Position numbers and translations under genes: made by a program
Notes under the pieces: model-generated
What the model was told of the DNA's origin: nothing
Database searches by the model: none
Seen by the model: only the letters and a program-made list of their open reading frames with translations
Shown here: in pieces, positions 16,022 through 41,124 of the stretch
Layout: the number at the start of each line of letters is the position of its first letter
Position numbering within the stretch: the stretch's first letter is position 1
Origin: Streptomyces sp. P3
Lineage (GTDB): Bacteria > Actinomycetota > Actinomycetes > Streptomycetales > Streptomycetaceae
Assembly: GCF_003032475.1 (NCBI RefSeq)
Contig: NZ_CP028369.1
Coordinates: 2,542,001 to 2,606,000, forward strand
Direction: 5' to 3'
Length of the DNA stretch: 64,000 nt

Positions 16022-17107
<1,086 letters not shown>

Positions 17108-25718: not shown

Positions 25719-26156
25719 ATGGGGGGCATGTCTGGTCCCTATGTCGTCCGCGGCTCCGTCTCGCTCCCCGAGGCCGAGCTCATGTGGCGTTTCTCGCGGT
25801 CTTCGGGGCCGGGCGGGCAGCACGTGAACACCAGCGACTCACAGGTGGAGCTCCGCTTCGACCTCGCCCGCACCGAGGCGTTCCCCGAGGTGTGGAAGGC
25901 GCGGGCGCTCGAACGGCTGGCCGGGCGGCTCGTCGACGGCGTCGTCACCGTCCGCGCCTCCGAGCACCGCTCCCAGTGGCGCAACCGCGAGACCGCCGCC
26001 GTACGCCTCGCCGCCCTGCTCGCCGAGGCCACCGCCCCGCCGCCCAAGCCGCGTAGGCCGACCCGGATTCCGCGCGGCATCAACGAGCGCCGGCTGCGGG
26101 AGAAGAAGCAGCGCTCCGACACCAAGCGGGGCAGGACCGGCCGCGACTGGTCCTGA
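25719..26156 (+). CDS. arfB: ArfB/YaeJ-like peptidyl-tRNA hydrolase (class I release-factor domain)
   Basis: Ribosome-rescue factor of 145 aa. The release-factor domain has the catalytic GGQ in [20 protein letters not shown] near residue 36, which hydrolyses peptidyl-tRNA on stalled ribosomes. The basic C-terminal tail ([20 protein letters not shown]) enters the empty mRNA channel in ArfB homologues. It lacks the codon-recognition domain of RF1/RF2. Two ATGs 9 nt apart are possible: 25719 with GGAGCGGGAAC upstream, or 25728 preceded by six Gs. Confidence 0.93.
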
Positions 26157-26177
26157 CAGAAGCGGATCAGGTCCCCG

Positions 26178-26240
26178 CCGTGCCGGTCCGCCGGTCGTCG
26201 TGCCGCTCCGCCGGTCGCCGTGCCGGTCCGTCGTGCCGGT
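26178..26240. repeat. About 20-bp degenerate tandem repeat
   Basis: Copies of cgtgccgKtccgccggtcg lie in the gap between the ArfB-like gene and the sigma factor gene: two full units, then shortened units ending cgtgccggt. No function is evident; promoter elements of the sigma gene may overlap it. Confidence 0.6.
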
Positions 26241-26364
26241 ACTCCGAACTGACCGGCGGTTCCCCCGTCCCGCTGTTCTGTCACATCTCGCCCGACCCGT
26301 CCGTCCTTCCCAGGACGAGTGCGATCGACTGCCGAACCGGGACGAGGGACGAAGGATGCAACCG

Positions 26365-27249
26365 ATGACGACGACGGGTGACGACGATTTCCTGGCCCGG
26401 TCCTTCGAGGCGCACCGCGCCCGGCTGCGCGCCGTGGCCCACCGCATGCTCGGCTCCGCCGCCGAGGCCGACGACGCCGTTCAGGAGGCGTGGTTGCGGC
26501 TCAGCCGCAGTCACGGCCGCAGCGGGGGCGAGGAGATCGGCAATCTCGGCGGCTGGCTGACGACGGTCGTCGGCCGGGTCTGTCTGGACATGCTCCGCTC
26601 GCGCCGCTCCCGTGCCGAGGAGCCGCTGGAGAACTGGTCTCCCGCGCCCTCCTCAGCCCTGCCCGACCCGGCGCAGGACGCCCTGCTCGCGGATTCCGTG
26701 GGCGCCGCCCTTCTCGTCGTCCTGGATGCCCTGACCCCCGCCGAGCGGCTGGCGTTCGTGCTGCACGACCTGTTCGGGGTGCCCTTCGACGAGGTCGCGG
26801 CGATCGTCGACCGGACCCCGCAGGCCGCCCGGCAGCTCGCCAGCAGGGCTCGCCGCCGGGTGCGCGGAGCGCAGGAGCCCGAGGCCGACCTGGTCCGGCA
26901 GCGCAAGGTGGTGGACGCTTTCCTGGCCGCCGCGCGGGAGGGCGACTTCGAGGGGCTGCTCGCGGTTCTCGACCCGGACGTCGTGTCCCGTTCCGAGGCC
27001 GGGGTGACGGCCGGCGCCGCGGCGGTCGCGGCGGGTGCGTCCAGTTTCCACCGCGTCGCCCTCGAAGCCCGGCCCGACCTCGCGATCCGGTCCGCCCTGG
27101 TGGACGGCGCGGCGGCGGTGGCGGTGCTGGCCGGCGACCGCGTGGAACGGGTGGTGCGCTTCACGTTCGTGGGGGGTGGGCGGATCGCCCTGATCGACGT
27201 CGTGAGCGAGCCCGCACGCCTCGCCCGGTTGCAGGTGACCCTCCTGTAG
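26365..27249 (+). CDS. ECF41-type (SigJ-like) RNA polymerase sigma factor
   Basis: A 294-aa ECF sigma factor with a fused C-terminal domain. The sigma2 region is FEAHRARLRAVAHRMLGSAAEADDAVQEAWLRLSR. Sigma4 is DALTPAERLAFVLHDLFGVPFDEVAAIVDRTPQAARQLASRARRRV. Residues about 180-294 form a SnoaL/NTF2-like domain (VVDAFLAAAREGDFEGLLAVLD). This architecture is ECF41, where the NTF2-like domain controls activity in place of an anti-sigma factor. ATG 26365 has GAAGGA at ideal spacing; ATG 26356 is the alternative. The carboxymuconolactone decarboxylase/oxidoreductase partner often found next to ECF41 genes is not adjacent here. Confidence 0.92.
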   Translation: MTTTGDDDFLARSFEAHRARLRAVAHRMLGSAAEADDAVQEAWLRLSRSHGRSGGEEIGNLGGWLTTVVGRVCLDMLRSRRSRAEEPLENWSPAPSSALPDPAQDALLADSVGAALLVVLDALTPAERLAFVLHDLFGVPFDEVAAIVDRTPQAARQLASRARRRVRGAQEPEADLVRQRKVVDAFLAAAREGDFEGLLAVLDPDVVSRSEAGVTAGAAAVAAGASSFHRVALEARPDLAIRSALVDGAAAVAVLAGDRVERVVRFTFVGGGRIALIDVVSEPARLARLQVTLL

Positions 27250-27286
<37 letters not shown>

Positions 27287-27432
27287 GCAAGGCTCAGGTC
27301 TGGGCCGACGCCGGTCCGGTGAGGCGGACGGGAGGGAGCGGGAGGTAGGGAGCGGCGGAGGCGACGGGCGGGAGTCGACGAGGAGGGGCGGCGCGGGGCG
27401 GGGGTGAGGCGACGAGGGGGCTCGGCGTCGCC

Positions 27433-28014
27433 TCAGGGCTGGTCCAGGCGCAGGACGCCGACCGTCTCGCCCTCGCTCCTCTCGCCGTTCTTGCGGAACC
27501 CCAGCCGCAGATAGAAGTCCTTCGGCCCGTTCTCGCCCTCGTGCCAGGTCACGTACATCTCCCGGGCGTCGCGCCGACGCAGTTCCGCGGCTACCGACTC
27601 CACGGCGAACCGGCCGTAGCCGCGGCCCTGTTCACCGGCGGCGATGTTCAGCCGCCACAGGCCGGAGCGGAGCACGGGGACGTCGCCGGCTCCGCCGGTC
27701 CAGTCGATGTCGAGGAAGGCCATCAGGAAGCCGACGGGACGGTCGCCGTCCATGATCAGGCGAGGCCAGGCGACGCCCGGCGGGTGGACGTAGGCCTCGG
27801 CGAGGGACTTCATGACCGGGGAGACCGCGAACTCCTGGTCGGGGCGGACGCTAATGCCGGTCGCGGCGGCGAAGTTGGCGGGGGTGATCTCAGCGAGGCG
27901 CAGTCCGGAAGCCGTCGCGGCGCTCCCGTCGGGTCCGGCGCTCCCGTCGCTCCCGTCGGGTCGGTCGGTCCCGTCGGTACGGACGGTTCTGTCGGGCCGG
28001 ACTGTCGCTCGCAT
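27433..28014 (-). CDS. GNAT-family N-acetyltransferase
   Basis: A 193-aa protein with a disordered N-terminus of Asp/Gly/Ser/Thr repeats (RTVRTDGTDRPDGSDGSAGP, residues 8-27). The GNAT core contains VGFLMAFLDIDW, LWRLNIAAGEQGRGYGRFAV (acetyl-CoA loop QGRGYG) and VTWHEGENGPKDFYLRLGFR. The layout resembles diamine acetyltransferases. The ATG lies 6 nt after TACGGT without a Shine-Dalgarno, suggesting a leaderless mRNA. The substrate is unknown. Confidence 0.88.
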   Translation of the reverse strand: MRATVRPDRTVRTDGTDRPDGSDGSAGPDGSAATASGLRLAEITPANFAAATGISVRPDQEFAVSPVMKSLAEAYVHPPGVAWPRLIMDGDRPVGFLMAFLDIDWTGGAGDVPVLRSGLWRLNIAAGEQGRGYGRFAVESVAAELRRRDAREMYVTWHEGENGPKDFYLRLGFRKNGERSEGETVGVLRLDQP

Positions 28015-28088
28015 GCGGGCACCGTAGGCGGACCGGTCGCGGGGCGGCCACGGCATTTCGGTGGCGCCCCGGCACACCTCCCGTGCCG

Positions 28089-28652
28089 TCAGCCCAACTG
28101 GCGGTAGCGGCCTCGGAAGTAGACCAGTGGGCCGCTGTCCGCGCTCGGGGTCGCGGCGGTCAGGACGCGGCCGATCACCAGGGTGTGGTCGCCCGCCGGG
28201 ACACGTTGCTCGGTGCGGCATTCCAGGGTGGCCAGCGCGCCGCCGACCAGGGGTGCGCCGGTGGCCTCGCCGCGCGTGTACGGGATGTCGTCGAAGAGGA
28301 GGCGGTCGCTGATGCGGCCCTTCATGGCGAAGCGGCCGGCGATGTGCCGCTGGCTCTCGGTGAGGACCGACACCGCCCAACGGGGCTGTTCGTCGAGCAG
28401 GTCGTCCATCCGGGAGCCGTTGCGCAGGCTGACCATGACCAGTGGCGGGTCCAGGGAGACGGAGACGAAGGCGGTGGCGGTCATGCCGACGTCCTCGCCG
28501 TCCGGCGCCCGGGGGTCGTCCGGGTCCAGGGAGGGCTCCCGGGCGGTCACCAGGACCACGCCGTCGGCGAGCCGGGACATGGCGGCGCGGAACTCGTCGT
28601 TGCTCACCCCCTCAGCATGCCCGGAGGTGGTCTTCGGCACGGTGTCGATCAT
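28089..28652 (-). CDS. Flavin reductase-like FMN-binding protein
   Basis: A 187-aa member of the flavin reductase/HpaC-like split-barrel family, which supplies reduced FMN or FAD to monooxygenases using NAD(P)H. Motifs include EFRAAMSRLADGVVLVT, MTATAFVSVSLDPPLVMVSL (flavin-binding), SVLTESQRHIAGRFA, GALATLECRTEQRVPAGDHT, VIGRVLTA and PLVYFRGRYRQLG. The ATG at 28652 is chosen; a GTG 12 nt upstream with AGGGTG near it, and an internal GTG (VSNDEFRAAM) with GAGGGG, are alternatives. No dedicated partner oxygenase is adjacent. Confidence 0.88.
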   Translation of the reverse strand: MIDTVPKTTSGHAEGVSNDEFRAAMSRLADGVVLVTAREPSLDPDDPRAPDGEDVGMTATAFVSVSLDPPLVMVSLRNGSRMDDLLDEQPRWAVSVLTESQRHIAGRFAMKGRISDRLLFDDIPYTRGEATGAPLVGGALATLECRTEQRVPAGDHTLVIGRVLTAATPSADSGPLVYFRGRYRQLG

Positions 28653-28832
28653 GTCTGTGGGCACCCTCGGAACGCTAGTGTCCGTGCGATGCGCGGCGCA
28701 TCGGACCTCCGCCCGAGTAGGGTCGTAGGACCGTGGACCCATCACCGCGTTCCGTGCGCCGGCGGCTGCTGTCCGTGTTCAGGAAACGCACAGGAAAAAC
28801 GCGGAAACTCCACTCAAATGTTCACGTTCATC

Positions 28833-28848
28833 TGTGACTTGAGTCACA
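28833..28848. promoter_or_regulatory. CRP-type palindrome upstream of cdgB
   Basis: TGTGACTTGAGTCACA is a perfect TGTGA-N6-TCACA inverted repeat and also satisfies the Streptomyces Crp motif GTG-N6-GNCAC. It lies 165 nt before the cdgB start codon and upstream of the BldD-like box. Confidence 0.6.
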
Positions 28849-28862
28849 AGGCGTACTAATTG

Positions 28863-28877
28863 TTGACCCTGTGTACC
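28863..28877. promoter_or_regulatory. Putative BldD box upstream of cdgB
   Basis: TTGACCCTGTGTACC fits the BldD consensus nTnACnCWGnGTnAn with a single mismatch near its right end. In S. coelicolor, cdgB is a known BldD target, which supports the assignment. Confidence 0.5.
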
Positions 28878-29012
28878 GAGTGAGCAGCGCGCTGTGATTC
28901 AGTGGCGGAGGCGTCACAACAAGACACACACCGACAACGAAGCACCAGAAACGACGTTGCGCCGAAGACAACCCTTGATTCGCTGCGAAGTCTCGGGGGG
29001 AGGGCGAAACAC

Positions 29013-30680
29013 ATGGAGACCGAGTCGGAGCCGTACGTCCGTCTTGCGTCCCTGCGACAGCTGCACCAGGTCATGGCCGACATGAACACGGCCCGCAGCC
29101 TGGCCGACACACTGCAGACCGTCGCCGACGGCGTGGTCACGGCACTCGGGTACGAGCTGGCGTGCGTCAACCTCGTGCGCGCCGACGGAGATCTCGTGGT
29201 CGCCGCCTTCTCCGGCAACCCGGCGGCCGAGGCCCTCATCACGGGCCGGGTCGGCTCGCGCGAGTCCTGGGAGCGCCGTCTCGGCATGGGCGAGACCTGG
29301 GGCGACCTGATCTTCATACCGCACACCGAGGGCTGGGTCCTCGACGACGACGACGTCCCGCAGTGGTACACCGACGGGCCCGCGCCCCGCTTCGAGGACG
29401 AATGGCACCCCTCGGACCGGCTCTTCGCCCCCATGTACACGCCCGCCGCCGCCGGCAGCGGTGACGCCTGCGGCGAGCTGATAGGCGTCCTGTCCGTGGA
29501 CCGGCCGCGCAACGGACGCCGCCCCGGCGCGTGGGGGCGCGAAGCGCTCCAGATGTACGCCTTCCAGGCCGCCATCGCCATCAGCAACGCGCGTCTACGT
29601 GCGAACATGCAGCGGGCGCTGGTCCGGCTCGAACGCGAGCAGCAGGCCCTGCGTGCCAGTGAGGAATCCTTCCGGCAGGCCTTCGAGTACGCCCCCTCCG
29701 GCATGGCGATAGCCGAGATGGGCGGCGACCAGCACGGGCGCATACTCCGCACCAACGACGCTCTGTGCCGCCTGCTGGGCCGGCCGGCCTCCGCGATGCG
29801 CCGCTACTCCTTCTCCGACCTCGTCCACCCGGAGGACATAGGCACCCTGCTCCGCACCTCCGCGGAAGGCGGTCGCGCGGAGCTGCGCCTGGGCCGCCGG
29901 GACGGCACCTACCTCTGGGTCAGTCTCCGCAACTCCGTCGTCGCCGACGCCGCCGACGGCCCCCGCTTCCTCCTCACCCATGTCGAGGACATAGAGGAGC
30001 GCAAGCGCCGCGAGCTGCAGCTCGCCCACCGCGCCTCCCACGACTCCCTCACCGGCCTGCCGAACTCGGCCGAACTGCGCTCGCGGCTGTCCGCCCGGCT
30101 CTGTCAGAGGCCCCTGTCGACCCACCCCGCCGCCGTCGACGCCATGGACACGGCCTACGGCCACGCCGCCTTCGACGCCAACGGCCACGGCTTCGACTAC
30201 CGGCCCGGCGGTGCCGAGTCCTTCGAGGGCTACGACCACCACGTGCACACCGCCGCCCCCGAGGACGGCCGCGACGACGGCGCCAAGGGGCTCGCCGTCC
30301 TCTTCTGCGACCTCGACGGCTTCAAGTCGATCAACGACCGGTTCGGGCACAACGCGGGCGACGCGGTCCTCATCGAGGTCGCCCGCCGGCTCTCCCGCCA
30401 GGTCCGTGACGGCGACACGGTCGCCCGGCTCGGGGGCGACGAGTTCGTGATCCTCGCCGACGGCCTCGGCCGCGCCGACGCCGCCGACCTCGCCGTACGT
30501 CTGCGCAACGAGATCATCCAGCCGATCCGGGCCGAGGGGCGGGCCGTGCGGGTGGGCGCCAGCTTCGGCATCGGCTGGGCGCACTGCGGGATGACCGCGG
30601 ACGAAGTGCTGAAGTCCGCGGACGAGCGCATGTACGTAGAGAAACGATCTCGTCCCAAACAGCACAGGCGTGCGGGATGA
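29013..30680 (+). CDS. cdgB: Diguanylate cyclase, GAF-PAS-GGDEF (CdgB-like)
   Basis: Cyclic di-GMP synthase of 555 aa; the S. coelicolor counterpart CdgB (SCO4281) affects aerial development. Domains are GAF (residues about 20-195, LADTLQTVADGVVTALGYEL), a short coiled linker (ALVRLEREQQALRASEESFR), PAS/PAC (215-335, FEYAPSGMAIAEMGG, HVEDIEERKRRELQ) and GGDEF (340-555). The active site RLGGDEFVIL is intact. The inhibitory I-site RxxD (RDGD) sits five residues before it, so product inhibition is expected. A variable His/Asp-rich insert of about 70 residues splits the GGDEF domain after PNSAELRSRL. The ATG has a strong GGGGGGAGGG Shine-Dalgarno. Confidence 0.93.
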   Translation: METESEPYVRLASLRQLHQVMADMNTARSLADTLQTVADGVVTALGYELACVNLVRADGDLVVAAFSGNPAAEALITGRVGSRESWERRLGMGETWGDLIFIPHTEGWVLDDDDVPQWYTDGPAPRFEDEWHPSDRLFAPMYTPAAAGSGDACGELIGVLSVDRPRNGRRPGAWGREALQMYAFQAAIAISNARLRANMQRALVRLEREQQALRASEESFRQAFEYAPSGMAIAEMGGDQHGRILRTNDALCRLLGRPASAMRRYSFSDLVHPEDIGTLLRTSAEGGRAELRLGRRDGTYLWVSLRNSVVADAADGPRFLLTHVEDIEERKRRELQLAHRASHDSLTGLPNSAELRSRLSARLCQRPLSTHPAAVDAMDTAYGHAAFDANGHGFDYRPGGAESFEGYDHHVHTAAPEDGRDDGAKGLAVLFCDLDGFKSINDRFGHNAGDAVLIEVARRLSRQVRDGDTVARLGGDEFVILADGLGRADAADLAVRLRNEIIQPIRAEGRAVRVGASFGIGWAHCGMTADEVLKSADERMYVEKRSRPKQHRRAG

Positions 30681-30827
30681 TCACCAGGTCAGCGGTCCCG
30701 CGGCCGCGCTGATGCGATCCGAGTCACCCGTTTGGTCGGTGGGGACCGGGTAGGCTCGCAGTTCTCACACGTATGGATACGCGTACGCGTGTCGCATCGA
30801 CCCCGCACTGTTGAGGAGTACGAAGGG

Positions 30828-31781
30828 ATGACGCCCGGCAATAACGGCGCGAGCACGCCCGAGGACGACGACCCGTTCGGCTACCTCTACGCCGACGGCC
30901 AGGCCAACGGCGCGCAGCCGCCCTCCGGCGGTGGTTACGGCTACCCGAACTCGGTCAGCAGGGTGCGTGCGGTCGGCGAGCGCCAGTACGGACAGCAGCC
31001 GCAGCAGCAGACCGCGCAGTACGGGCAGCCGGCCACGGTTCCGCAGCAGGGCGCGTACGGTCAGCCGAACGCGCACTACGCCGCGCCCGAGAACTTCGCC
31101 GCCGGCGGCGGCCCCTCGACCGGCCGGCAGCCCGTGCAGGGCGGCGGCCGTGGCGGCGGGCCCAACACCAAGGGTCTGCTGATCGGCGCGGTCGCGGTGG
31201 TCGCCGCGGTCGTGATCGGCATCGCGGTGGCCATGGCCAACGGCGACAAGGGCACGGACGACGACAAGGCGGGCGGCGGCGCCTCCGCCCCGGCCTCCGC
31301 CCCGGCGAGCCCGACGCCCAGCGCGTCCGGCACCGGCGACGCGAACGAGGTCGAACTGCCGGCGGTCGACGCGAAGGCGGTCAGCCTGACGGGCGGCACG
31401 ACCACGGCGTCCGACGTGAAGGGCGCGAAGGCCGACGGTGGGATCTACGTCACGAACTTCAACGCCGTCGGCGCGGCGATCACCTGGAACGTCAGCGGCA
31501 TCCCCGAGGACGGCAAGTACACGCTGAACGTGAACTACGGGGTGCCCGGCAAGGACGCCAAGGCCACGCTCACGATCAACGGCACGGCGCAGACCCGTCT
31601 GCTGAACCTCGCGAACTTCGCCAATGCCGCGGAGGGCGACTACGCCAAGGGCTGGACCAAAACCTGGGCGAACCTCACCCTCAACAAGGGCACCAACACC
31701 ATCAAGATCTCCTGTGAGCAGGGCAATTCCTGCGACGCCAACTTCGACCAGCTGTCGCTCGAGGCGGGCTGGCGGAGCTAG
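30828..31781 (+). CDS. Membrane-anchored CBM35-like carbohydrate-binding protein
   Basis: A 317-aa protein. The cytoplasmic N-terminus is Gln/Tyr/Gly/Pro-rich (QYGQQPQQQTAQYGQP, residues about 50-75). One membrane segment (LLIGAVAVVAAVVIGIAVAM, about residues 117-138) is followed by an Ala/Ser/Pro linker and an extracellular beta-sandwich of about 135 residues (GIYVTNFNAVGAAITWNVSG, YTLNVNYGVPGKDAKATLTI, GTNTIKISCEQGNSCDANFD) like CBM35/CBM6 modules. No catalytic domain is present. It may sense or tether cell-wall or extracellular glycan. The Shine-Dalgarno is GAGGAG/AAGGG. A hairpin begins right at the stop codon. Confidence 0.88.
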   Translation: MTPGNNGASTPEDDDPFGYLYADGQANGAQPPSGGGYGYPNSVSRVRAVGERQYGQQPQQQTAQYGQPATVPQQGAYGQPNAHYAAPENFAAGGGPSTGRQPVQGGGRGGGPNTKGLLIGAVAVVAAVVIGIAVAMANGDKGTDDDKAGGGASAPASAPASPTPSASGTGDANEVELPAVDAKAVSLTGGTTTASDVKGAKADGGIYVTNFNAVGAAITWNVSGIPEDGKYTLNVNYGVPGKDAKATLTINGTAQTRLLNLANFANAAEGDYAKGWTKTWANLTLNKGTNTIKISCEQGNSCDANFDQLSLEAGWRS

Positions 31782-31810
31782 AAGACTCATGAAGATCTTG
31801 GTGAGTCTTC
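31781..31810 (+). terminator. Hairpin at the end of the CBM35 gene
   Basis: A perfect 9-bp stem GAAGACTCA / TGAGTCTTC with a 12-nt loop, starting at the last base of the stop codon. Its moderate stability makes it a likely terminator. Confidence 0.6.
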
Positions 31811-32083
31811 CAGCGGAACCGGCGGCCTGCCCCGTGGGATCTCGCGGGGGCCGGTTCTGGCCGCTCTTCCCTCGCCGCTGACCGACACCCGCGTCGTCAG
31901 CTCCTCGTAGGTCACCGGTCCAGGTCGCCCGCCGTCGGGCCGTCACCTGTCCGGCCTCCTCCGGAGGGTGTGCGTCGACGGCTGGACCTGAGCCAGCGCG
32001 GCGTCCGGAGGCCCGAACCTGCCAAAGAGACGGTGGCCGGCCCAGTCCTCGGGCCGGCCACCGTCGTCGTGCGGGCGGGTGTT
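31811..32083. other. Convergent intergenic region before nagA end
   Basis: Apart from the strong hairpin at 32030-32064, nothing recognisable lies in this stretch. Confidence 0.5.
32030..32064. terminator. Terminator of nagK-nagA operon
   Basis: A perfect 14-bp GC-rich stem (32030-32043 and 32051-32064) with a 7-nt loop, 20 nt beyond the minus-strand nagA stop. It could also stop plus-strand read-through. Confidence 0.88.
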
Positions 32084-33292
32084 TCAGGCCAGGTCGGGGG
32101 CCACCACCCAGGCGCCCTTGCGCATCACGCCCTTGAGCTCGAAGGCTTCGTCCAGCAGGACCAGGTCGGCGTCCTTGCCGGGCTCCAGGGAGCCGACGCG
32201 GTCGGCCAGGCCCAGCAGGCGGGCCGGGTTGGCGGACAGGGCGGCGACGACGTCCTCGACGGGGAGCCGATCGATCGTCACCGCCCGCTGGAACGCGCGG
32301 TCCTGGGTGAGGGTGGAGCCGGCGATGGAGCCGCCCTCCGCGAGACGGGCCACGCCCTCGCTGACCTCGACCTCCAGCGGGCCGAGCAGATAGCGGCCGT
32401 CGCCGATGCCGGCGGCGCCCATCGCGTCCGTGATGAACGCGACCCGGCCCGGGCCCGCGTGACGGAACGCCAGCTCGAGTGCGGCCGGGTGCAGATGCGT
32501 GCCGTCGTTGATCAGCTCGACCGTCACCCGCTCGTCCTCCAGGAAGGCGGCGATCGGGCCGGGGGCGCGGTGCCCCAGGGGCGGCATCGCGTTGAAGAGG
32601 TGGGTGGCGACGGTGGCTCCGGCCTCGATGGCCTGAACGGTCTGCTCGTAGGTGGCGTCGGTGTGGCCGACGGCCGCGATCACGCCGTGCTCGGCCAGCA
32701 GCCGTACGGAGTCCAGGCCGCCCGGCAGTTCGGTCGCCAGGGTGACCATTCTGGCGTGGCCGCGCGCCGCGTCCACCAGCTTGCGCACCTCCGCCGGGTC
32801 GGGGTGGCGCAGCAGCGCCTCGGAGTGCGCGCCCTTGCGGCAGGGCGAGATGAACGGGCCTTCGAAGTGGATGCCGGCGAGGTCGCCCTGTTCGGCGAGT
32901 TCGCTCAGCAGGCCGGCCTGGCGGACCAGGACGTCCATGTCGTCGGTGACGGTGGAGGCGACGAGTGTGGTGGTGCCGTGCGCACGGTGGGTGCGGACGG
33001 CTTTCAGAACGTCCTCGGCCGAGCCGCAGAAGGAGGCGCCGCCGCCGCCGTGGTTGTGCAGGTCGACGAAGCCGGGCACCAGCCAGTGGCCGGACACGTC
33101 GAGCACGTCGATCATGTCGGCGGCGCCCCGCGGAGTTCCGTGCGGGGCTTCGGCCGCGATCTTCGTGCCGATGACGGTGATGCGGCCGTCGGGGACCGTA
33201 CCCGTCGGCAGCACCACCTTGGCGCCGGTCAGTACCTGCGAGTGGGATGTGGTCGACTGCGCAGTTCCCCGCGCCCCTAGGGGGGTGGCCAT
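32084..33292 (-). CDS. nagA: N-acetylglucosamine-6-phosphate deacetylase
   Basis: NagA removes the acetyl group from GlcNAc-6-P to give GlcN-6-P, a step that also controls DasR effector levels in Streptomyces. The 402-aa amidohydrolase shows DLHNHGGGG (metal HxH), HFEGPFISPCRKGAH (catalytic-site Glu), VGHTDA, ATHLFNAM and VAFITDAMGAAG with the catalytic Asp. Its ATG shares one base with the nagK stop (TGATG), and GGAGG lies 9-10 nt upstream, so it is coupled to nagK. The first 15-20 residues (MATPLGARGTAQSTTSHSQ) are encoded by a dispersed Streptomyces repeat and are probably not part of the conserved fold. Confidence 0.94.
   Translation of the reverse strand: MATPLGARGTAQSTTSHSQVLTGAKVVLPTGTVPDGRITVIGTKIAAEAPHGTPRGAADMIDVLDVSGHWLVPGFVDLHNHGGGGASFCGSAEDVLKAVRTHRAHGTTTLVASTVTDDMDVLVRQAGLLSELAEQGDLAGIHFEGPFISPCRKGAHSEALLRHPDPAEVRKLVDAARGHARMVTLATELPGGLDSVRLLAEHGVIAAVGHTDATYEQTVQAIEAGATVATHLFNAMPPLGHRAPGPIAAFLEDERVTVELINDGTHLHPAALELAFRHAGPGRVAFITDAMGAAGIGDGRYLLGPLEVEVSEGVARLAEGGSIAGSTLTQDRAFQRAVTIDRLPVEDVVAALSANPARLLGLADRVGSLEPGKDADLVLLDEAFELKGVMRKGAWVVAPDLA
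33251..33278. repeat. Dispersed GC-rich repeat, copy 1 (within nagA start)
   Basis: The core gcgcagttccccgcgcccct is almost identical to the copy at 41172-41199 (cgcagtttcccgcgcccct, both after ggtcg). This sequence type is scattered in Streptomyces chromosomes. Here it encodes part of the NagA N-terminus on the minus strand. Confidence 0.75.
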
Positions 33293-34251
33293 CAGGGTGT
33301 TACCTCCATGCCGTCGGTCGTGTCGAGGAGATCCCGGGCCAACAGGCCGGCGCCGAGGCATCCGGCGCTGTCGCCCAGGGCCGCCGGGACGATGTCCGGC
33401 AGCTTCTGGAAGGTCACCCGCCGCCGGACGGCGTCCCGCAGCGGTGTGAACAAGGCTTCCCCCGCCTCGGCCAGGCCGCCACCGATGACGAGGGTGCGCG
33501 GGTCCAGCAGGGTGAGGGCGGTGACCAGGCCGTCGGCCAGGGCGTCCACGGCGCCCTGCCAGACGCGGACGGCTTCCAGGTCGCCGGACGCGAAGGCCTT
33601 CGCGCAGTCCGCGGCGTCCGCCGCGGGGTCCCCGACGGCCGCCGCCCACGCCTCGCCGACCGCCGCCGCGGACGCGAACCGTTCCAGGCAGCCGCGCTGC
33701 CCGCACGGACAGGGGGCGCCGCCGGGCCGGACGACGATGTGGCCGATCTCGCCCGCGAAACCGTGCGCGCCCGCTTCGACGCGGCCGTCGACGCCGATCG
33801 CGCCCGCGATGCCGGTGCCCAGCGCCACGAACAGGAAGCGGTCGGCGCCCCGGCCGGCGCCGATCCGGCCCTCGGCGAGACCGCCGGCGCGCACGTCGTG
33901 GCCGAGGGCGACCGGGACGCCGAGGCGTTCGGCGAGCAGGGCGCGCAGCGGGACGTCCCGCCAGCCCAGGTTGGCCGAGTAGACGGCGACGCCGCCGGTC
34001 TCGTCGACGATGCCGGGCACGGCGACGCCGGCCGCGGCGGCGGGCTCGCCGTACTCCCGGGCGCCGTGCTCGCGCAGGTCGGCGGCGAACTCCAGGATGC
34101 CGGCGACCACGGCGTCGGGTCCGCGCTCGCGGCCGGTGGTCCGCAGGGCCCGGTGCAGCAGTGTGCCTCCCCCGGAGGGGGGACCCCCAGCGCCGATCAG
34201 GGCGGCCTTCATCCCGGTGCCGCCCACATCGAGGGCGATGACATGTCTCAC
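33292..34251 (-). CDS. nagK: N-acetylglucosamine kinase (ROK family)
   Basis: ROK sugar kinase of 319 aa; the S. coelicolor orthologue SCO4285 is GlcNAc kinase NagK. Motifs are the ATP-binding VIALDVGGTGMKAALIG, LGHDVRAGGLAEGRIGAGRG with the catalytic Asp, ALGTGIAGAIGVDG, and the zinc signature GEIGHIVVRPGG followed by CPCGQRGCLE. It phosphorylates GlcNAc from chitin or cell-wall turnover for NagA. The start is GTG 34251, without an obvious Shine-Dalgarno. A dre-like operator sits 28 nt upstream, fitting DasR control of the nagKA operon. Confidence 0.93.
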   Translation of the reverse strand: MRHVIALDVGGTGMKAALIGAGGPPSGGGTLLHRALRTTGRERGPDAVVAGILEFAADLREHGAREYGEPAAAAGVAVPGIVDETGGVAVYSANLGWRDVPLRALLAERLGVPVALGHDVRAGGLAEGRIGAGRGADRFLFVALGTGIAGAIGVDGRVEAGAHGFAGEIGHIVVRPGGAPCPCGQRGCLERFASAAAVGEAWAAAVGDPAADAADCAKAFASGDLEAVRVWQGAVDALADGLVTALTLLDPRTLVIGGGLAEAGEALFTPLRDAVRRRVTFQKLPDIVPAALGDSAGCLGAGLLARDLLDTTDGMEVTP

Positions 34252-34278
34252 GGGGACAGTGTGGACCGAGTACCCGCG

Positions 34279-34294
34279 AGAGGTCTAGTCCACT
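34279..34294. promoter_or_regulatory. DasR operator (dre-like) for nagK-nagA
   Basis: AGAGGTCTAGTCCACT matches the dre consensus ACTGGTCTAGACCACT at 13 of 16 positions. It lies 28 nt before the nagK start codon, an expected place for the GlcNAc-responsive repressor DasR. Confidence 0.7.
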
Positions 34295-34349
34295 TCTGGT
34301 TGTGGGGGTAGCGTGCCGGACCCGGGGCCGGAGAGGTCCGGTCCGCATG

Positions 34350-34365
34350 GGTGGTGTAGACCTTG
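34350..34365. promoter_or_regulatory. Second dre-like site, on the solute-binding-protein side
   Basis: GGTGGTGTAGACCTTG shares the TGGTnTAGACC core with dre (10 of 16 overall). It overlaps a possible -35 TTGATC (34363-34368), which lies 18 nt before TATGAG (34387-34392), upstream of the solute-binding-protein gene. Confidence 0.4.
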
Positions 34366-34413
34366 ATCCGAATATCGGTCCATTGGTATGAGCAATCAGT
34401 TGGGAGCAGTGCG

Positions 34414-35703
34414 GTGCAGCGGCGGGCACGGAAGTCAGCAACGATCACGGCGACCGTGGCGGGGGTGACCGCCCTCGGCCTGGCCGCGGTCCTCACCGGC
34501 TGAGGACTGGCCTCGGGTTCCGGCGACGTCACTCTCAGACTCGTCGCCGCCGACTACGGCGACAGCAGCGCCAACAGCTCGAAGAAGTACTGGGACGGGC
34601 TCGTCGCCGCGTACGAGAAGGACCACCCGGGCGTCACCGTCGACGTCAGCGTGTACTCCTGGAACGACGTCGACGCGAAGGTCAAGGCCATGGTCGACGC
34701 GGGCGACGCCCCCGACATGGCCCAGATCGGCGCCTACGCCGACTACGCGGCGGACGACCTGCTGTACAAGGCGGGCGACGTGCTCTCCATCCCCGTCGAG
34801 GCGGACTTCGCGCCCCAGCTCGCGCGGGCGGGCCAGGTGCGCGGCGTGCAGTACGGCATGCCGTTCGCCTCCTCCACCCGGTTGCTGTTCTACAACAAGA
34901 CCCTCTTCGCCGAGGCCGGCATCAGCGCGCCCACCACCTGGGCCGAGCTCGCGAAGGACGCGCGGGCGCTCAAGAAGGACGGCGTGAAGTACCCCTACGC
35001 GCTGCCCCTCGGCCCCGAGGAGGCGCAGGCCGAGACCCTGCAGTGGCTGCTCAGCGGGCGGGGCGGCTACACCCAGACGGTCAGCAGCTACAGCTTCGAC
35101 TCCGCCGAGAACGTCGAGACCCTCGACTGGCTGAAGACCGACCTGGTCGGCAAGGGCCTGACCGGGCCGGTCGCGCCGGGCAGGCTGAACCGGGCCACGG
35201 CGTTCGCGGCCTTCGCCGCCGGCGACGTGGGCATGCTCAACGGGCATCCCTCGCTGATGAAGACGGCCGCGGCCAAGGGCGTCGAGTTCGGCATGGTGCC
35301 GATGCCCGGCCTCGACGGCCCCAGCAAGACCTCCCTGGGCGTCGCGGACTGGATGACCGCCTTCAAGCGGGGCGGGCACGGCGACGAGATCGGCGACTTC
35401 CTCGACTTCGTCTACAGCAAGGAGAACGTGCTGGACTTCTCCCACGAGTACGACCTGCTGCCGGTCACCACCTCCGCGTCCCTGGTCATGGGCGCGGCCA
35501 AGGAGGACGCCGACCTCAAGCCGTTCCTCGCGGAGCTGCCGCTGTCGGAGAGCTACCCCGTCGGGCGGACCTCGTGGGCCAGGGTCAGCGCGCAGATCAA
35601 GAAGCGGATCGGCCAGGCCGTGACCGCGAACGGCAGCCCCGCCGACGTGCTCGGCGGCCTGCAGACGACCGCGACGACGCTGGAGAGCGCCGCCGGCGAA
35701 TGA
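34414..35703 (+). pseudogene. Sugar ABC transporter solute-binding protein with in-frame UGA at the lipobox cysteine
   Basis: From GTG 34414 (GGGAG 7 nt upstream) the frame encodes a lipoprotein signal MQRRARKSATITATVAG with following VTALGLAAVLTG, then TGA at 34501-34503, then GLASGSGDVTLRLVAADYGD. The stop replaces exactly the lipobox Cys (LTG-C; TGC to TGA is one base). Downstream, 400 residues of family-1-type solute-binding protein are intact: YWDGLVAAYEKDHPGVTVDV, DAPDMAQIGAYADYAADDLL, SSTRLLFYNKTLFAEAGI, FAAFAAGDVGMLNGHPSLM. A restart at GTG 34651 would lack export. It may be a pseudogene, a read-through or recoded gene, or a base error. The divergent nagK, two dre-like sites and a distant MsiK suggest amino-sugar uptake; no permease genes are adjacent. 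Confidence 0.8.
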
Positions 35704-35738
35704 GCCGGATGTCAGCGGCGGGCGTTACCGTGCGGGTC

Positions 35739-36032
35739 ATGGAGTCGGGCACGGAGGCGGGCAGCGGGGTGGGCATGGAGGCGGGCCGGGAACGGCGGGC
35801 GGAAGAGGACGGGCTGGGCGTGCGGGAGCGCGGCATCCTCGCCCTCGAACGGCGCGGGTTCCCCGGCCCCGGCGCGAAAGAACGCGCGATACGCGAGGAA
35901 CTGGACCTGGCGCCCGTGCGCTACTACCAGCTCCTCAACGCCCTCCTCGACGACCCCCGCGCGCTGGCCCACGACCCGGTCACGGTGAACCGGCTGCGCA
36001 GAGTACGAGAAGCGAGACGGACGGAACGTTAG
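35739..36032 (+). CDS. DUF3263 small DNA-binding-like protein
   Basis: A 97-aa protein. The first 33 residues are Gly/Glu-rich. The rest matches DUF3263: GLGVRERGILALERRGFPGP, AKERAIREELDLAPVRYYQL, LNALLDDPRALAHDPVTVNR, ending Arg-rich. The RERxIL and helix-turn-helix-like segment suggests a small transcription regulator, as in mycobacterial homologues of unknown function. TACCGT lies 7 nt before the ATG and no Shine-Dalgarno is present, implying a leaderless mRNA. It is 36 nt after the solute-binding-protein gene. Confidence 0.88.
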   Translation: MESGTEAGSGVGMEAGRERRAEEDGLGVRERGILALERRGFPGPGAKERAIREELDLAPVRYYQLLNALLDDPRALAHDPVTVNRLRRVREARRTER

Positions 36033-36061
36033 CGGCGGCGCTCGCTGGTTATCGTCCCTGT

Positions 36062-36928
36062 ATGGGCACCCCAGAGACGCACTCCACGGCACCCGGCCCC
36101 CTTCCCGTTCCGGTCACCCCGGCGGGCCGCGCGGCGCTCGACGCGATCGTCGGCCGCCCGTCGGCCGCCCTCGTCGCCCTCGACTTCGACGGCACCCTCG
36201 CCCCGATCGTCGAGAACCCGCAGGACGCCCGGGCGCACCCCGACGCCGTCCCCGCGCTCGCCGAGCTCGCCCCGAAGGTGGCCGGCGTGGCCGTCGTCAC
36301 CGGGCGGCCCGCCGAGGTCGCCGTACGGCACGGCGGATTCGCCGGGGTCGAGGGGCTGGGCCGGCTCACCGTGCTCGGCCACTACGGCGCCGAGCGCTGG
36401 GACGCCCGAACCGGCGCCCTCAGCGCCCCCGAACCGCACCCCGGCGTGGCCGCCGTCCGTGCCGGGCTTCCGCAGGTCCTCGCGGCCGCCGGGGACCGGC
36501 CCGGCGTCTGGATCGAGGAGAAGGGCGGCCGGGCCGTCGCCGTGCACACCCGCCGCGCCGACGACCCCCGGGCCGCCTTCGACGCCCTGCGCGGACCCCT
36601 CACCGCTCTCGCGACCCGGCACGGTCTGATCGTCGAGCCCGGCCGCATGGTCCTGGAGCTGCGGCCGCCGGGCATGGACAAGGGCGTGGCCCTGCTGGAC
36701 CACGTCCGCGAGACGGGCGCCCGCTCGGTGCTCTACGCCGGCGACGACCTCGGCGACCTCCCCGCCTTCGCGGCCGTCGAGAAACTGCGCGCCGACGGCG
36801 TCCCCGGACTGCTGGTGTGCAGTGGCAGCGCGGAGGTCGGCGAACTGGCCGAGCGCGCGGACCTGGTCGTCGACGGGCCCGCCGGGGTCGTACGGCTGCT
36901 GCGGCAGCTGGCGGCACGGCTCGGCTGA
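36062..36928 (+). CDS. otsB: Trehalose-6-phosphate phosphatase
   Basis: HAD-superfamily phosphatase of 288 aa that dephosphorylates trehalose-6-P. Motif I is VALDFDGTLAPIVENP with the nucleophilic Asp. VVTGRPAEVAVRH is motif II and VLGHYGAERWD part of the cap. LELRPPGMDKGVAL supplies the motif III Lys. LYAGDDLGDLPAF is motif IV. TATCGT 6 nt before the ATG and no Shine-Dalgarno suggest a leaderless mRNA. It is convergent with otsA, an unusual but functional arrangement: the two enzymes of one pathway are on opposite strands sharing a terminator. Confidence 0.95.
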   Translation: MGTPETHSTAPGPLPVPVTPAGRAALDAIVGRPSAALVALDFDGTLAPIVENPQDARAHPDAVPALAELAPKVAGVAVVTGRPAEVAVRHGGFAGVEGLGRLTVLGHYGAERWDARTGALSAPEPHPGVAAVRAGLPQVLAAAGDRPGVWIEEKGGRAVAVHTRRADDPRAAFDALRGPLTALATRHGLIVEPGRMVLELRPPGMDKGVALLDHVRETGARSVLYAGDDLGDLPAFAAVEKLRADGVPGLLVCSGSAEVGELAERADLVVDGPAGVVRLLRQLAARLG

Positions 36929-36961
36929 GCCGCGTACGGCCGGGCGGGCGAGCCCGCGTAC

Positions 36962-36997
36962 GGGCCGGGGCATGCCGTCGGCGGCCCGCCCCGGCCC
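36962..36997. terminator. Terminator between convergent otsB and otsA
   Basis: A perfect 10-bp stem GGGCCGGGGC / GCCCCGGCCC (36962-36971 and 36988-36997), placed between the two stop codons. Confidence 0.8.
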
Positions 36998-37009
36998 GCA
37001 GTCGGCCGC

Positions 37010-38425
37010 TCAGCCCGGCTGCGTCGCGCGCAGGGCGTTCAGCTGGTCCAGGAACCAGCGGGCCGGGGGCAGCGCGGTCGCCGCGGCGGACAGCCGCTTC
37101 GTGCGCTCGGCCCGCTCGCCCGGCGGCATGGACAGCGCCTCGTGCAGGGCGCGGGCGGTCTCCAGGACGTCGTACGGGTTCACCGTGATCGCGTCCTCGC
37201 GCAGCTCCCAGTACGCGCCCGCCTCCCGGGACAGCACCAGCGCGCAGCCCTCGTCGGAGACGACCGGGACCTCCTTGGCGACCAGGTTCATGCCGTCGCG
37301 GATCGGGTTGACCAGCGCGACGTCCGCGAGGCGGTAGGCGGCGAGGGAGCGGGCGAAGTCGTCCTCGAGGTTCAGCAGCACCGGGGTCCAGCCGGGCGTG
37401 CCGTAGCCGGTGTTGATCTCGTCCGTCAGGCGCCGCACCTCGGCCATGTAGTCCCGGTAGACGGTGAGGTCCTGGCGGGAGGGGTAGGCGAAGGCCACGT
37501 GGACGACCCGTTCGCGCCACTCCGGGTGGTCGTCGAGCAGCTGCCGGTAGGCCAGGAGGCCGCGCACGATGTTCTTGGACAGCTCGGTGCGGTCGACGCG
37601 GACGATCGCCTTGCGTCCCTCGCCGATCTCCGCACGGAGGGACGCCATGCGTTCCTCGACGTCCGGCCGGTGCGAGCGCTCGCGCAGGAAGTCGGCGTCC
37701 GCGCCGAGCCCGTGCACACCGACCTCGGTGCCGCCCAGGCCCCCGGTGGACTGCTCGCAGCACGCGGTGAAGGCGTCCGCCCAGCGCCGGGTGAGGAAGC
37801 CCAGCCGGTCCGCGCCGAGCATGCCCCGCAGCAGCTGTGCGCGGATGTCCCGGGGGAGCAGCGCGAAGTAGTCCGGGGGAGCCCACGGCGTGTGGGAGAA
37901 GTGCCCGATCCGCAGGTCGGGGCGCAGCTCGCGGAGCATGCCGGGGACGAGACACAGGTGGTAGTCCTGGACCAGCACGGCCGCGCCGTCCGCCGCCTCC
38001 TCGGCGAGCGCCTCGGCGAAGGCCCGGTTGTATGTTTCGTACGCGGCCCACTGGCGGCGGAACTCCGCGTCGAAGACCGGCTCCAGCGGGGTCTGGTACA
38101 GCAGGTGGTGGACGAACCACAGCACCGAGTTGGCGATGCCGTTGTACGCGTCGGCGTGCACGTCGGCCGGGACGGGCAGCATACGCACGCCCTCCTCGCC
38201 GACCCCGCGCCGGACCGCCTCGCGGTCGCCGTCGGAGAGGGCCGAGCACACCCAGAGCGCACCCGCGTCGGGGCCGATGGCCGACAGACCGGAGACCAGT
38301 CCGCCGCCGCCGCGTTTCGTGTGCAGCGAGCCGTCCTCGCGCACCTCGTAGGAGACCGGACCGCGGTTGGACGCGACCAGTACCTCGGCACCCCGGGCGG
38401 CAGACGTGTCGTGCGTGGAAGCCAT
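37010..38425 (-). CDS. otsA: Trehalose-6-phosphate synthase (GT20)
   Basis: Retaining GT-B glycosyltransferase of 471 aa that makes trehalose-6-P from glucose-6-P and an NDP-glucose. The N-terminal loop VLVASNRGPVSYEV, the acceptor motif VQDYHLCLVPGMLRE, GHFSHTPWAPPDYF, the R..K catalytic pair (VRVDRTELSKNIVRGL) and NPIRDGMNLVAKE followed by VSREAGA-like residues are present. GAGG precedes the ATG. It follows gpgS on the same strand after 116 nt and is convergent with otsB. Actinobacterial enzymes can prefer ADP- or GDP-glucose; the donor cannot be fixed here. Confidence 0.94.
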   Translation of the reverse strand: MASTHDTSAARGAEVLVASNRGPVSYEVREDGSLHTKRGGGGLVSGLSAIGPDAGALWVCSALSDGDREAVRRGVGEEGVRMLPVPADVHADAYNGIANSVLWFVHHLLYQTPLEPVFDAEFRRQWAAYETYNRAFAEALAEEAADGAAVLVQDYHLCLVPGMLRELRPDLRIGHFSHTPWAPPDYFALLPRDIRAQLLRGMLGADRLGFLTRRWADAFTACCEQSTGGLGGTEVGVHGLGADADFLRERSHRPDVEERMASLRAEIGEGRKAIVRVDRTELSKNIVRGLLAYRQLLDDHPEWRERVVHVAFAYPSRQDLTVYRDYMAEVRRLTDEINTGYGTPGWTPVLLNLEDDFARSLAAYRLADVALVNPIRDGMNLVAKEVPVVSDEGCALVLSREAGAYWELREDAITVNPYDVLETARALHEALSMPPGERAERTKRLSAAATALPPARWFLDQLNALRATQPG

Positions 38426-38541
38426 AAGCCTCAACCTAGCCCGCTCTGTAAACACTCAAACGTGCGGCCGCGCCGGGCGGCGGGGCCGTGTCCGGCCGTG
38501 TCGCCGCCGCCGGCGCCCTGTCGCGGCGGCCGGGTACGCGG

Positions 38542-39537
38542 TCAGGCCACCCTGCGGCGCGCGTACTCCGCGATGTCCGTCATCGGCGGTCGCTCCTCCG
38601 TGTCCACGGAGTGGGTGTGCGGCTCGAAGCCGTCGGGGCCGCGCTCGAACTGGGTGAGGGCGGGGCGGACGAGATGGCCGCGGGCCAGCCGCAGCTGGGC
38701 GGTGCGGTAGATCGCCGCCGCCATCCGGCCCAGGGCCTGGCCGTCCTGGTGGCGGTGCTTGCGCACGCCGACGTCGACCTGGGCGAGGGCACCGAGGCCC
38801 ACCAGGTGCAGGGCGTCGACCAGCATGCCCAGCTCCACGCCGTAGCCCACCGGGAAGGGCAGCTGCTCCAGCAGGCTCCGGCGGGCCGCGTACTCGCCGC
38901 CGAGCGGCTGCACGAACCCGGCGAGCTGCGGCCAGTGCATGTTGAGCAGGGGGCGGGCCATCAGCTCGGTGACCCGCCCGCCCTGACCGGCCGCGCCGCC
39001 CAGCGGGCGGTCGTACATGGCCTTGACCAGGTCCACGTCCGGATCGGTGAGCAGCGGGCCGACGATCCCCGAGACGAAGTCCGAGGAGAACTCGCGCAGG
39101 TCGGCGTCGACGAAGCAGACCACGTCCCCGCGGGTGACCAGCAGCGAGCGCCACAGCACCTCGCCCTTGCCGGGCACGGCCGGGATGCGGGGGAGTATCT
39201 CGTCGCGGTGGACGACGCGCGCGCCCGCCGCCGCGGCGACCTCGGAGGTGCGGTCGGTCGATCCGGAGTCGACGACGACGATCTCGTCGACGAGCGGGAC
39301 CTGCTGCATGAGGTCGTGACGGATCACGGCGACGATCTCGCCGACCGTCTCCTCCTCGTCGAGCGCGGGCAGCACGACGCTCACCGACTGGCCCGTGCGC
39401 TGTTTCGCGGCGAGAATCCGGTGCAGTGGGCGGTCCGTCAGGGACCAGGAACGGGTGCTCAGCCAGCGCTCCACTTCTTCCAGCACGTCGGCGGCTCCTC
39501 TGCGTTCTCTCGGCGAGTACGGTCCTGTGTGATCCAT
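38542..39537 (-). CDS. gpgS: Glucosyl-3-phosphoglycerate synthase (GT81-like)
   Basis: A 331-aa GT-A glycosyltransferase that transfers glucose from NDP-glucose to 3-phosphoglycerate, the first step of glucosylglycerate and methylglucose lipopolysaccharide synthesis. Features are VVLPALDEEETVGEIV (donor binding), EIVVVDSGSTDRTSEVAAAA, VPGKGEVLWRSL, CFVDADLREFSSDFVSG (metal-binding DAD) and FVQPLGGEYAARRSLLEQLP followed by FPVGYGVELGML, characteristic of GpgS. The phosphatase GpgP is not in this window. It precedes otsA, linking two compatible-solute pathways. Confidence 0.93.
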   Translation of the reverse strand: MDHTGPYSPRERRGAADVLEEVERWLSTRSWSLTDRPLHRILAAKQRTGQSVSVVLPALDEEETVGEIVAVIRHDLMQQVPLVDEIVVVDSGSTDRTSEVAAAAGARVVHRDEILPRIPAVPGKGEVLWRSLLVTRGDVVCFVDADLREFSSDFVSGIVGPLLTDPDVDLVKAMYDRPLGGAAGQGGRVTELMARPLLNMHWPQLAGFVQPLGGEYAARRSLLEQLPFPVGYGVELGMLVDALHLVGLGALAQVDVGVRKHRHQDGQALGRMAAAIYRTAQLRLARGHLVRPALTQFERGPDGFEPHTHSVDTEERPPMTDIAEYARRRVA

Positions 39538-39579
39538 CTCGCGGTTCGGACGACTATCTCAACTGTCCTGGCCTTCGGT

Positions 39580-39585
39580 TACAGT
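39580..39585 (+). promoter_or_regulatory. Probable -10 element of the thrC leader
   Basis: TACAGT lies in the gap between gpgS and the riboswitch. A start about 8 nt downstream would give a 5' leader of about 230 nt holding the SAM-I aptamer. The -35 region is not convincing. Confidence 0.4.
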
Positions 39586-39653
39586 CTTGGACAACGCGGG
39601 TGACCATCGCATGTCAGGGTCATCGGCGCCCACAGATCAACAACCGAATACCG

Positions 39654-39805
39654 CTCATCCAGAGGGGCAGAGGGACACGGCCCGATGAAGCCCCGGCAAC
39701 CCTCCAGTCGGTTCTCGTAGATCAGTGTTGATCGTTCAGCGAGGCTCCCGGCTCGGGAAGGTGCCAAATCCGTCTCACGGCGAAGTGCGTCGTGAGGAAG
39801 ATGAG
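39654..39805 (+). ncRNA. SAM-I (S-box) riboswitch upstream of thrC
   Basis: Conserved S-box blocks are in order: CTCATC-CAGAGGGG (P1 and the asymmetric loop), AGAGGGACACGGCCCGATGA, AGCCCCGGCAACCCTCC, and GGTGCCAAATCC. P4 is CTCAC / GTGAG, and the closing P1 strand is GGAAGATGAG. P1 is CTCATC (39654-39659) with GATGAG (39800-39805). The Shine-Dalgarno GAGGAGAAAGGG begins inside the 3' P1 strand, so ligand binding should hide the ribosome site. This predicts translational repression of thrC by S-adenosylmethionine, with no separate terminator. Confidence 0.9.
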
Positions 39806-39825
39806 GAGAAAGGGCCTCGCCTCAC

Positions 39826-41124
39826 ATGGCTGCGCAGACTGTTGCAAGCACCACGGACTCTACGACCTCCGCTGTCGACCTCGGTCCGGCCACCGCGTTG
39901 AGCTGCCGCGAGTGCGGCCACCGCGTCCCCCTCGGTCCGGTCTTCGCGTGCGAGGAGTGTTTCGGCCCGCTCGAGATCGCGTACGACTTCTCCTCCTACG
40001 ACACGGAGGAGCTGCGCAAGCGCATCGAGGCGGGACCCGCGAACATCTGGCGCTACGCGCCGCTGCTGCCCGTCCCGGCGGACGTGGCCGACAAGCCGAA
40101 CATCAACCCCGGCTGGACCAAGCTCGTACAGGCCGACAACCTCGCCCGCGAGCTGGGCGTCGACGCCGGGAAGCTCTTCGTCAAGGACGACTCCGGCAAC
40201 CCGACCCACTCCTTCAAGGACCGGGTCGTCGCCCAGGCCATCGAGGCCGCCCGCGCGTTCGGCTTCACCACGCTCTCCTGCTCCTCCACCGGCAACCTGG
40301 CCGGCGCCGTGGGCGCCGCCGCGGCCCGCGCCGGCTTCCGCTCGTGCGTGTTCATCCCGCACGACCTGGAGCAGGGCAAGGTCGTCATGGCCGCGATCTA
40401 CGGCGGCGAGCTCGTCGGCATCGAGGGCAACTACGACGACGTCAACCGCTTCTGCTCCGAGCTCATCGGCGACCCGGCGGGCGAGGGCTGGGGCTTCGTC
40501 AACGTCAACCTGCGGCCCTACTACGCCGAGGGTTCGAAGACGCTGGCGTACGAGATCTGCGAGCAGCTCGGCTGGCGGCTGCCCGACCAGCTGGTGGTGC
40601 CCATCGCGTCCGGCTCCCAGCTCACGAAGATCGACAAGGGTCTGCAGGAGCTGATCAAGCTCGGGCTGGTCGAGGACAGGCCGTACAAGATCTTCGGCGC
40701 GCAGGCGGAGGGCTGCTCCCCGGTGTCCGTCGCCTACAAGGCGGGACACGACGTGGTCCGGCCCCAGAAGCCGAACACCATCGCCAAGTCGCTGGCCATC
40801 GGCAACCCGGCGGACGGTCCGTACGTCCTCGACATCGCGCGGCGGACCGGCGGCGCGGTGGAGGACGTGAACGACGAGCAGGTCGTCGACGCGATCAAGC
40901 TGCTGGGGCGCACCGAGGGCATCTTCGCGGAGACGGCCGGCGGCGTGACCGTGGGCGTGACGAAGAAGTTGATCGACAACGGTCTGCTCGACCCGACGAA
41001 GACCACCGTCGTCCTGAACACCGGCGACGGCCTGAAGACCCTGGACGCGGTGGCCGGCACCGGACTCACCGCGACCATCCGCCCGAACCTGGACTCTTTC
41101 CGAGAGGCTGGCCTCGCATCATGA
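39826..41124 (+). CDS. thrC: Threonine synthase
   Basis: PLP-dependent enzyme of 432 aa converting O-phosphohomoserine to threonine. An N-terminal zinc-ribbon-like pair (LSCRECGHRVPLG, FACEECFGPLE) precedes the fold-type II core. The PLP lysine is in DDSGNPTHSFKDRVV (about residue 128), SCSSTGNLAGAVGAAAA is the phosphate-cup region, and VVPIASGSQLTKI and TAGGVTVGVTKKLID complete the site. It sits behind a SAM-I riboswitch, which is atypical for thrC. A ThiS/MoaD-like gene follows after 107 nt. Confidence 0.95.
   Translation: MAAQTVASTTDSTTSAVDLGPATALSCRECGHRVPLGPVFACEECFGPLEIAYDFSSYDTEELRKRIEAGPANIWRYAPLLPVPADVADKPNINPGWTKLVQADNLARELGVDAGKLFVKDDSGNPTHSFKDRVVAQAIEAARAFGFTTLSCSSTGNLAGAVGAAAARAGFRSCVFIPHDLEQGKVVMAAIYGGELVGIEGNYDDVNRFCSELIGDPAGEGWGFVNVNLRPYYAEGSKTLAYEICEQLGWRLPDQLVVPIASGSQLTKIDKGLQELIKLGLVEDRPYKIFGAQAEGCSPVSVAYKAGHDVVRPQKPNTIAKSLAIGNPADGPYVLDIARRTGGAVEDVNDEQVVDAIKLLGRTEGIFAETAGGVTVGVTKKLIDNGLLDPTKTTVVLNTGDGLKTLDAVAGTGLTATIRPNLDSFREAGLAS

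Follow-up and report, generated by a model that had tools for sequence, protein, structure and literature searches.

A recent single-base nonsense mutation has probably knocked out an orphan, DasR-controlled family-1 sugar-binding lipoprotein gene in one Streptomyces lineage. The gene lies in the 64,000-nucleotide stretch of Streptomyces sp. P3 DNA analysed here (the window), and the genome concerned (G000) consists of one 9.85-Mb contig with a listed completeness of 100%. The signal peptide and the mature part share one frame that is broken by TGA at 34501-34503, as a preliminary description of this DNA had stated and as the sequence and its translation confirm. That description named four possibilities, i.e. 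a recent nonsense mutation, UGA read-through, recoding by selenocysteine and a base error, and of these the evidence agrees with a recent nonsense mutation (or base error). The features of the site are as follows.

34402..34406, + strand: Shine-Dalgarno-like GGGAG, from the sequence
34414..34500, + strand: lipoprotein signal peptide of 29 codons ending in LTG, in the same frame in close relatives
34489..34507, unstranded: perfect 7-bp inverted repeat with a 5-nt loop (GTCCTCA ccggc TGAGGAC), imperfect in a close relative
34501..34503, + strand: in-frame TGA at the lipobox position, a cysteine codon in relatives
34504..35703, + strand: mature part of the family-1 solute-binding protein, in an intact frame of 399 codons closed by the terminal TGA

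The gene starts with GTG at 34414, and its signal peptide of 29 codons reads VQRRARKSATITATVAGVTALGLAAVLTG in the window translation. After the internal TGA, 399 sense codons follow up to the terminal TGA at 35701-35703. The full length of 1290 bp is shared by the two nearest relatives, G013 and G225, with zero indels, and the downstream frame is undamaged, as had been claimed. PF01547 scores 115.4 bits at the window gene against a curated cut-off of 26, which identifies a family-1 solute-binding protein, and the match starts at 34579; the related protein P0001 matches both PF01547 and PF13416. The lipobox cysteine codon that marks family-1 solute-binding lipoproteins is absent from the window gene, TGA standing in its place, and this site is the sole cysteine codon in the G013 version of the gene.

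Among the matches listed when 392 genomes of the genus were searched, the two nearest genes, those of G013 (97%) and G225 (96%), lack an internal stop and carry a cysteine codon at the site. Across 109 orthologue loci, a count in which species may overlap between loci and which omits weak distant matches (L148-L155), the second G013 and G225 copies (L039-L040) and loci fetched for other purposes, the lipobox codon is TGC in 98, TGT in 8 and TGA in 1, the window's own (L001). The remaining two fell outside the regular expression used: L145 has Cys, and the distant L144 (45% identity) shows none. Cysteine is present at 107 of the 108 orthologue loci other than the window's, and also in P0001 (97% identical, 429 aa), the representative, and the one member compared, of a cluster with 32 members. 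The preliminary description was right that TGC is the usual codon here, and the orthologue alignment it had proposed found TGA in the window alone; the absence of the internal stop from the relatives examined is the pattern of a nonsense pseudogene. A DNA search of plasmid records gave zero matches, and one of 61 relatives gave no genome nearer than those already found. The species is represented by this one genome, and the TGA may be a private change of its lineage. A TAG counted once in each of eight relatives was considered as a stop at the same site and was rejected, being the terminal stop, at mature codon 394, in all eight.

The neighbouring features relevant to function are the following.

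32084..33280, - strand: amidohydrolase, NagA-like (PF01979), start putative
33292..34251, - strand: ROK-family kinase (PF00480), divergent neighbour, NagK-like, the name taken from the SCO4284-4286 arrangement
34279..34294, unstranded: predicted dre-like DasR site AGAGGTCTAGTCCACT, the same 16-mer as listed for SCO4286/nagKA in PMC4398421
34350..34365, unstranded: second predicted dre-like site GGTGGTGTAGACCTTG, which departs by one base from the SCO4286 site ggtggtgtagacctta in the same paper
35700..36032, + strand: DUF3263 protein (PF11662), with a candidate ATG at 35700 that shares bases with the binding protein's terminal TGA
36062..36928, + strand: trehalose-phosphatase, OtsB-like (PF02358)

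In PMC4398421, SCO4286 of Streptomyces coelicolor is a DasR-regulon gene that adjoins nagKA and has two DasR sites. The window gene likewise adjoins nagKA-type genes, and its two upstream sites, one identical and one differing by 1 base, would place it in the DasR regulon. Position and regulation, not sequence, make the likeness and point to the window gene as the counterpart of SCO4286, from which it differs in that its frame is broken by the internal TGA. We take the SCO4286 product to be a solute-binding protein. The label 'GlcNAc-related' given to the gene in the preliminary description is borne out by the adjoining ROK kinase and amidohydrolase and by counterparts of both SCO4286 DasR sites. 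The phrase 'importer lost' goes too far: a Pfam scan of 11 ORFs from 25719 to 41124, which passed over some small or overlapping ones, found no permease family. The adjoining permease genes of an ABC sugar importer operon were not seen among the ORFs scanned, so that one orphan binding protein is affected. Since the ATG at 35700 overlaps the terminal TGA, the early stop might affect the DUF3263 gene by polarity. The best structure match of P0001 is 3VXB, a 'putative sugar-binding lipoprotein' (E 5.8e-16, residues 16-212), a distant match among family-1 binding proteins of known structure.

Several further elements were identified in the window. A SAM riboswitch (RF00162, 77.6 bits) at 39652-39807 (+) lies directly 5' of a PLP-enzyme ORF at 39826-41124 (PF00291), which we read as threonine synthase. 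An msiK RNA motif (RF01747, 59.7 bits) at 17113-17172 (-) lies just 5' of the ORF at 16022-17107 (-), whose product, an ABC ATPase carrying a MalK OB fold, is presumably MsiK, the ATPase common to sugar ABC importers. At 25719-26156 (+) lies the ORF of a small RF-1-domain protein (PF00472) that may be an ArfB-like ribosome-rescue factor.

The position of the stop was described at the outset as a striking coincidence. In the G013 gene, 110 single-base changes in 86 codons lead to a stop, and a random nonsense change would land on the lipobox codon with a probability of ~0.5-0.9%, varying with transition bias; such a hit is unusual but was noted after the fact. The coincidence shrinks in view of the local inverted repeat, which the base change raised in identity to a perfect stem. 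As single-stranded DNA, a 32-nt piece folds with -7.9 kcal/mol in the window versus -6.0 in the relative, and the 81 nt around the TGA fold somewhat better than shuffled sequences (z -1.66, 11 of 200 shuffles equally good), an advantage that is due to the repeat. Under thresholds chosen after the stem was seen, the lipobox change alone among the 110 possible nonsense changes gives a stem of at least 7 bp with loops of up to 20 nt; with loops of up to 40 nt, five reach at least 7 bp and the lipobox change ties for third. With the loop limited to 3-12 nt and matched bases required on either side, none of the 28 other differences from G013 in the gene completes such a stem. Out of all 3870 substitutions, 30 complete a stem if the loop is 3-12 nt and two bases match on each side, and 96 do so under the plain criterion with loops to 20 nt.

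Changes that complete repeats were also counted over the whole window. On the G000 branch there are 20 among 959 changes versus 10.9 +/- 3.5 in the control, a ~1.8-fold excess matched by 1 of 200 replicates. The excess is modest, and it is weaker in coding DNA (13/702 versus 8.1 +/- 2.9, with 15 of 200 replicates as high) than in non-coding DNA (7/257 versus 2.5 +/- 1.5). No excess was found on the G013 branch (10/822 versus 8.5 +/- 3.0). The imperfect inverted repeat in the lipobox DNA probably steered the change to the lipobox codon, and the change made the repeat perfect, as replication template switching at quasipalindromes would. Changes perfecting quasipalindromes are described as template-switch products in Escherichia coli in PMC7202029, and the window case is like them in that one change makes an imperfect inverted repeat more perfect. 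Unlike the E. coli work, it comes from one sequence comparison and not from a watched mutation event, and as the repeat was noticed after folding, a template-switch origin is a suggestion and not a proof.

Translation would stop after the 29-residue signal peptide, so that no exported, lipid-anchored protein would be made, and the frame would look intact because there has been too little time for further decay. Changes polarised since the split from G013 number nine synonymous and eight nonsynonymous in the G000 gene, and five of each in G013, against a background in the 39 other window ORFs of 461:307 and 352:273 on the two branches, respectively. The gene shows no excess decay and no relaxation, with counts too small to separate a young change from a gene in use; a ratio near the local average fits the one as well as the other, and in the latter respect tells against the knockout. 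Restart inside the gene, giving a cytosolic, unanchored binding protein, is improbable. The next in-frame start, GTG at 34651, does open a 350-codon frame, but it lies 49 codons past the TGA, and its product would be without the signal peptide and those 49 codons, including the start of the PF01547 match.

That selenocysteine is inserted at the lipobox is an idea that we regard as next to impossible. UGA does stand at a cysteine position, and Streptomyces incarnatus is reported in PMC4498112 to have selABCD; the existence of such a strain makes the absence of these genes from G000 informative. The selA/selB/selC/selD search that had been proposed detected no genes at cut-off in G000. A selA search gave zero matches, the best SelB score was 202.6 bits (cut-off 242.25), in a 418-aa frame that we read as EF-Tu-like, and the best SelD score was 83.2 bits (cut-off 125). 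Searches for tRNA-Sec gave hits in all four genomes searched, every one below cut-off, and the four in G000 are tRNA-Ser, Gly, Met, and Leu. The set of SelA, SelB, SelD, and tRNA-Sec of a selenoprotein-making genome is accordingly not seen in G000, and the idea is already contradicted by the missing SelA, SelB, and tRNA-Sec. A SECIS-like fold after 34503, also suggested in the preliminary description, was looked for: the 60 nt from the TGA onward fold no better than shuffles (z -0.45), and no SECIS family reaches the gathering score in a threshold scan of Rfam type over the 64 kb. A literature search on selenocysteine and the lipobox found nothing relevant, judged by title.

Decoding of the UGA at a useful rate, by near-cognate or suppressor read-through that yields some lipoprotein, is a less remote prospect than selenocysteine, yet still an improbable one, slightly ahead of internal restart. 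The stop falls exactly on the cysteine codon and the frame below it is undamaged, but none of the 67 Rfam-listed tRNA genes in G000 reads a stop. ARAGORN typed 66 of these, and the 67th has the anticodon UCC in the Rfam alignment; one tRNA-His typed by ARAGORN lies outside the Rfam list, and the negative result covers genes recognisable to Rfam or ARAGORN. TGA also ends the window gene itself, 31 of the 42 window ORFs that a GC-frame filter selected, and 215 of 287 ORFs over 464 kb. In addition, none of the 35 family-1 binding-protein matches in G000 has a stop inside the domain, none of the 34 other than the window gene has a stop at the lipobox, and 32 of these 34 have a lipobox-like Cys (L291 and L294 show none). 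No other orthologue locus examined has TGA. The marks of stop reassignment or suppression, a UGA-reading tRNA or UGA at a conserved Cys elsewhere, were not found among the loci examined, and a literature search found no paper combining a stop with a lipobox, or on a tRNA-Cys reading UAG. Recoding of the lipobox UGA is not supported. The particular version in which a cysteine or other near-cognate tRNA decodes the UGA at a low level, with export and anchoring limited to a small, controlled fraction of a GlcNAc-regulated binding protein, is more doubtful still than read-through at large.

A number of loci were seen in the course of these searches. At G000:C1:2384525-2384596 (L173:1654-1725, -), Rfam but not ARAGORN recognises a second gene resembling tRNA-Gly (UCC), whose T arm has one additional base. 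An opal-anticodon pattern gave 12 hits in G000, and the six checked with ARAGORN were one tRNA-Leu (CAG), one Phe-Asp-Glu cluster, and four without a tRNA. A tRNA-arm pattern match (L059, G000:C1:358647-358680) is conserved in G000, G013, and G225, and ARAGORN detects no tRNA in the copy of G000. What looked like a lipobox TGA in the binding protein L278 was dismissed, since it is DNA upstream of the real start and the true lipobox has Cys. The family-1 binding-protein genes L271 (G000:C1:5521070-5521770) and L272 (8068850-8069550) have identical N-termini and identical family scores, which suggests a recent duplication.

The main rival to a recent mutation, and a less likely one, is a consensus base error in the assembly, with the gene intact in the organism; we consider this unlikely, though clearly ahead of the other alternatives. 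A single base in one genome only is concerned, the substitutions follow the pattern of a normal gene, and the base lies inside a GC-rich inverted repeat with GGC before it. Inverted repeats and GGC are named as Illumina error triggers, from earlier work, in PMC4381044, and the same inverted repeat that could direct a mutation could favour a sequencing error as well. Against an error stand the single, complete-listed contig and the comparison of 261 orthologue pairs over 464 kb, in which 16 ORFs were flagged in G000 on account of 14 in-frame stops, spread over 13 ORFs, and of four multi-frame cases. The lipobox TGA alone among the 14 stops faces Cys, which also speaks against general decoding of UGA. 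When the alignments of 10 of the 15 other flagged ORFs were read, six stops appeared to be start-choice, C-terminal or doubtful-ORF effects; the stops in o11 and o163 and the frame splits in o54 and o106 were not explained so. On these readings the G000 sequence is not obviously error-rich. In the reverse comparison, over 251 ORFs, G013 was flagged for 12 stops, of which none faces Cys, and for six multi-frame cases. The G013 counterparts of the G000 ORFs at 207034-207951 and 335866-338658 (in the 464-kb stretch from G000:C1:2482001) show frameshift-like splits, so that single-gene interruptions occur in G013 too, unless these are base errors.

Beyond annotation, where the gene should be flagged as a likely pseudogene or the base as needing verification, the finding has little import. 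Read-through, if proven, would make lipid anchoring from a UGA codon an unexpected finding. If the mutation is real, it neatly illustrates how a quasipalindrome could steer a loss-of-function change to the lipobox.
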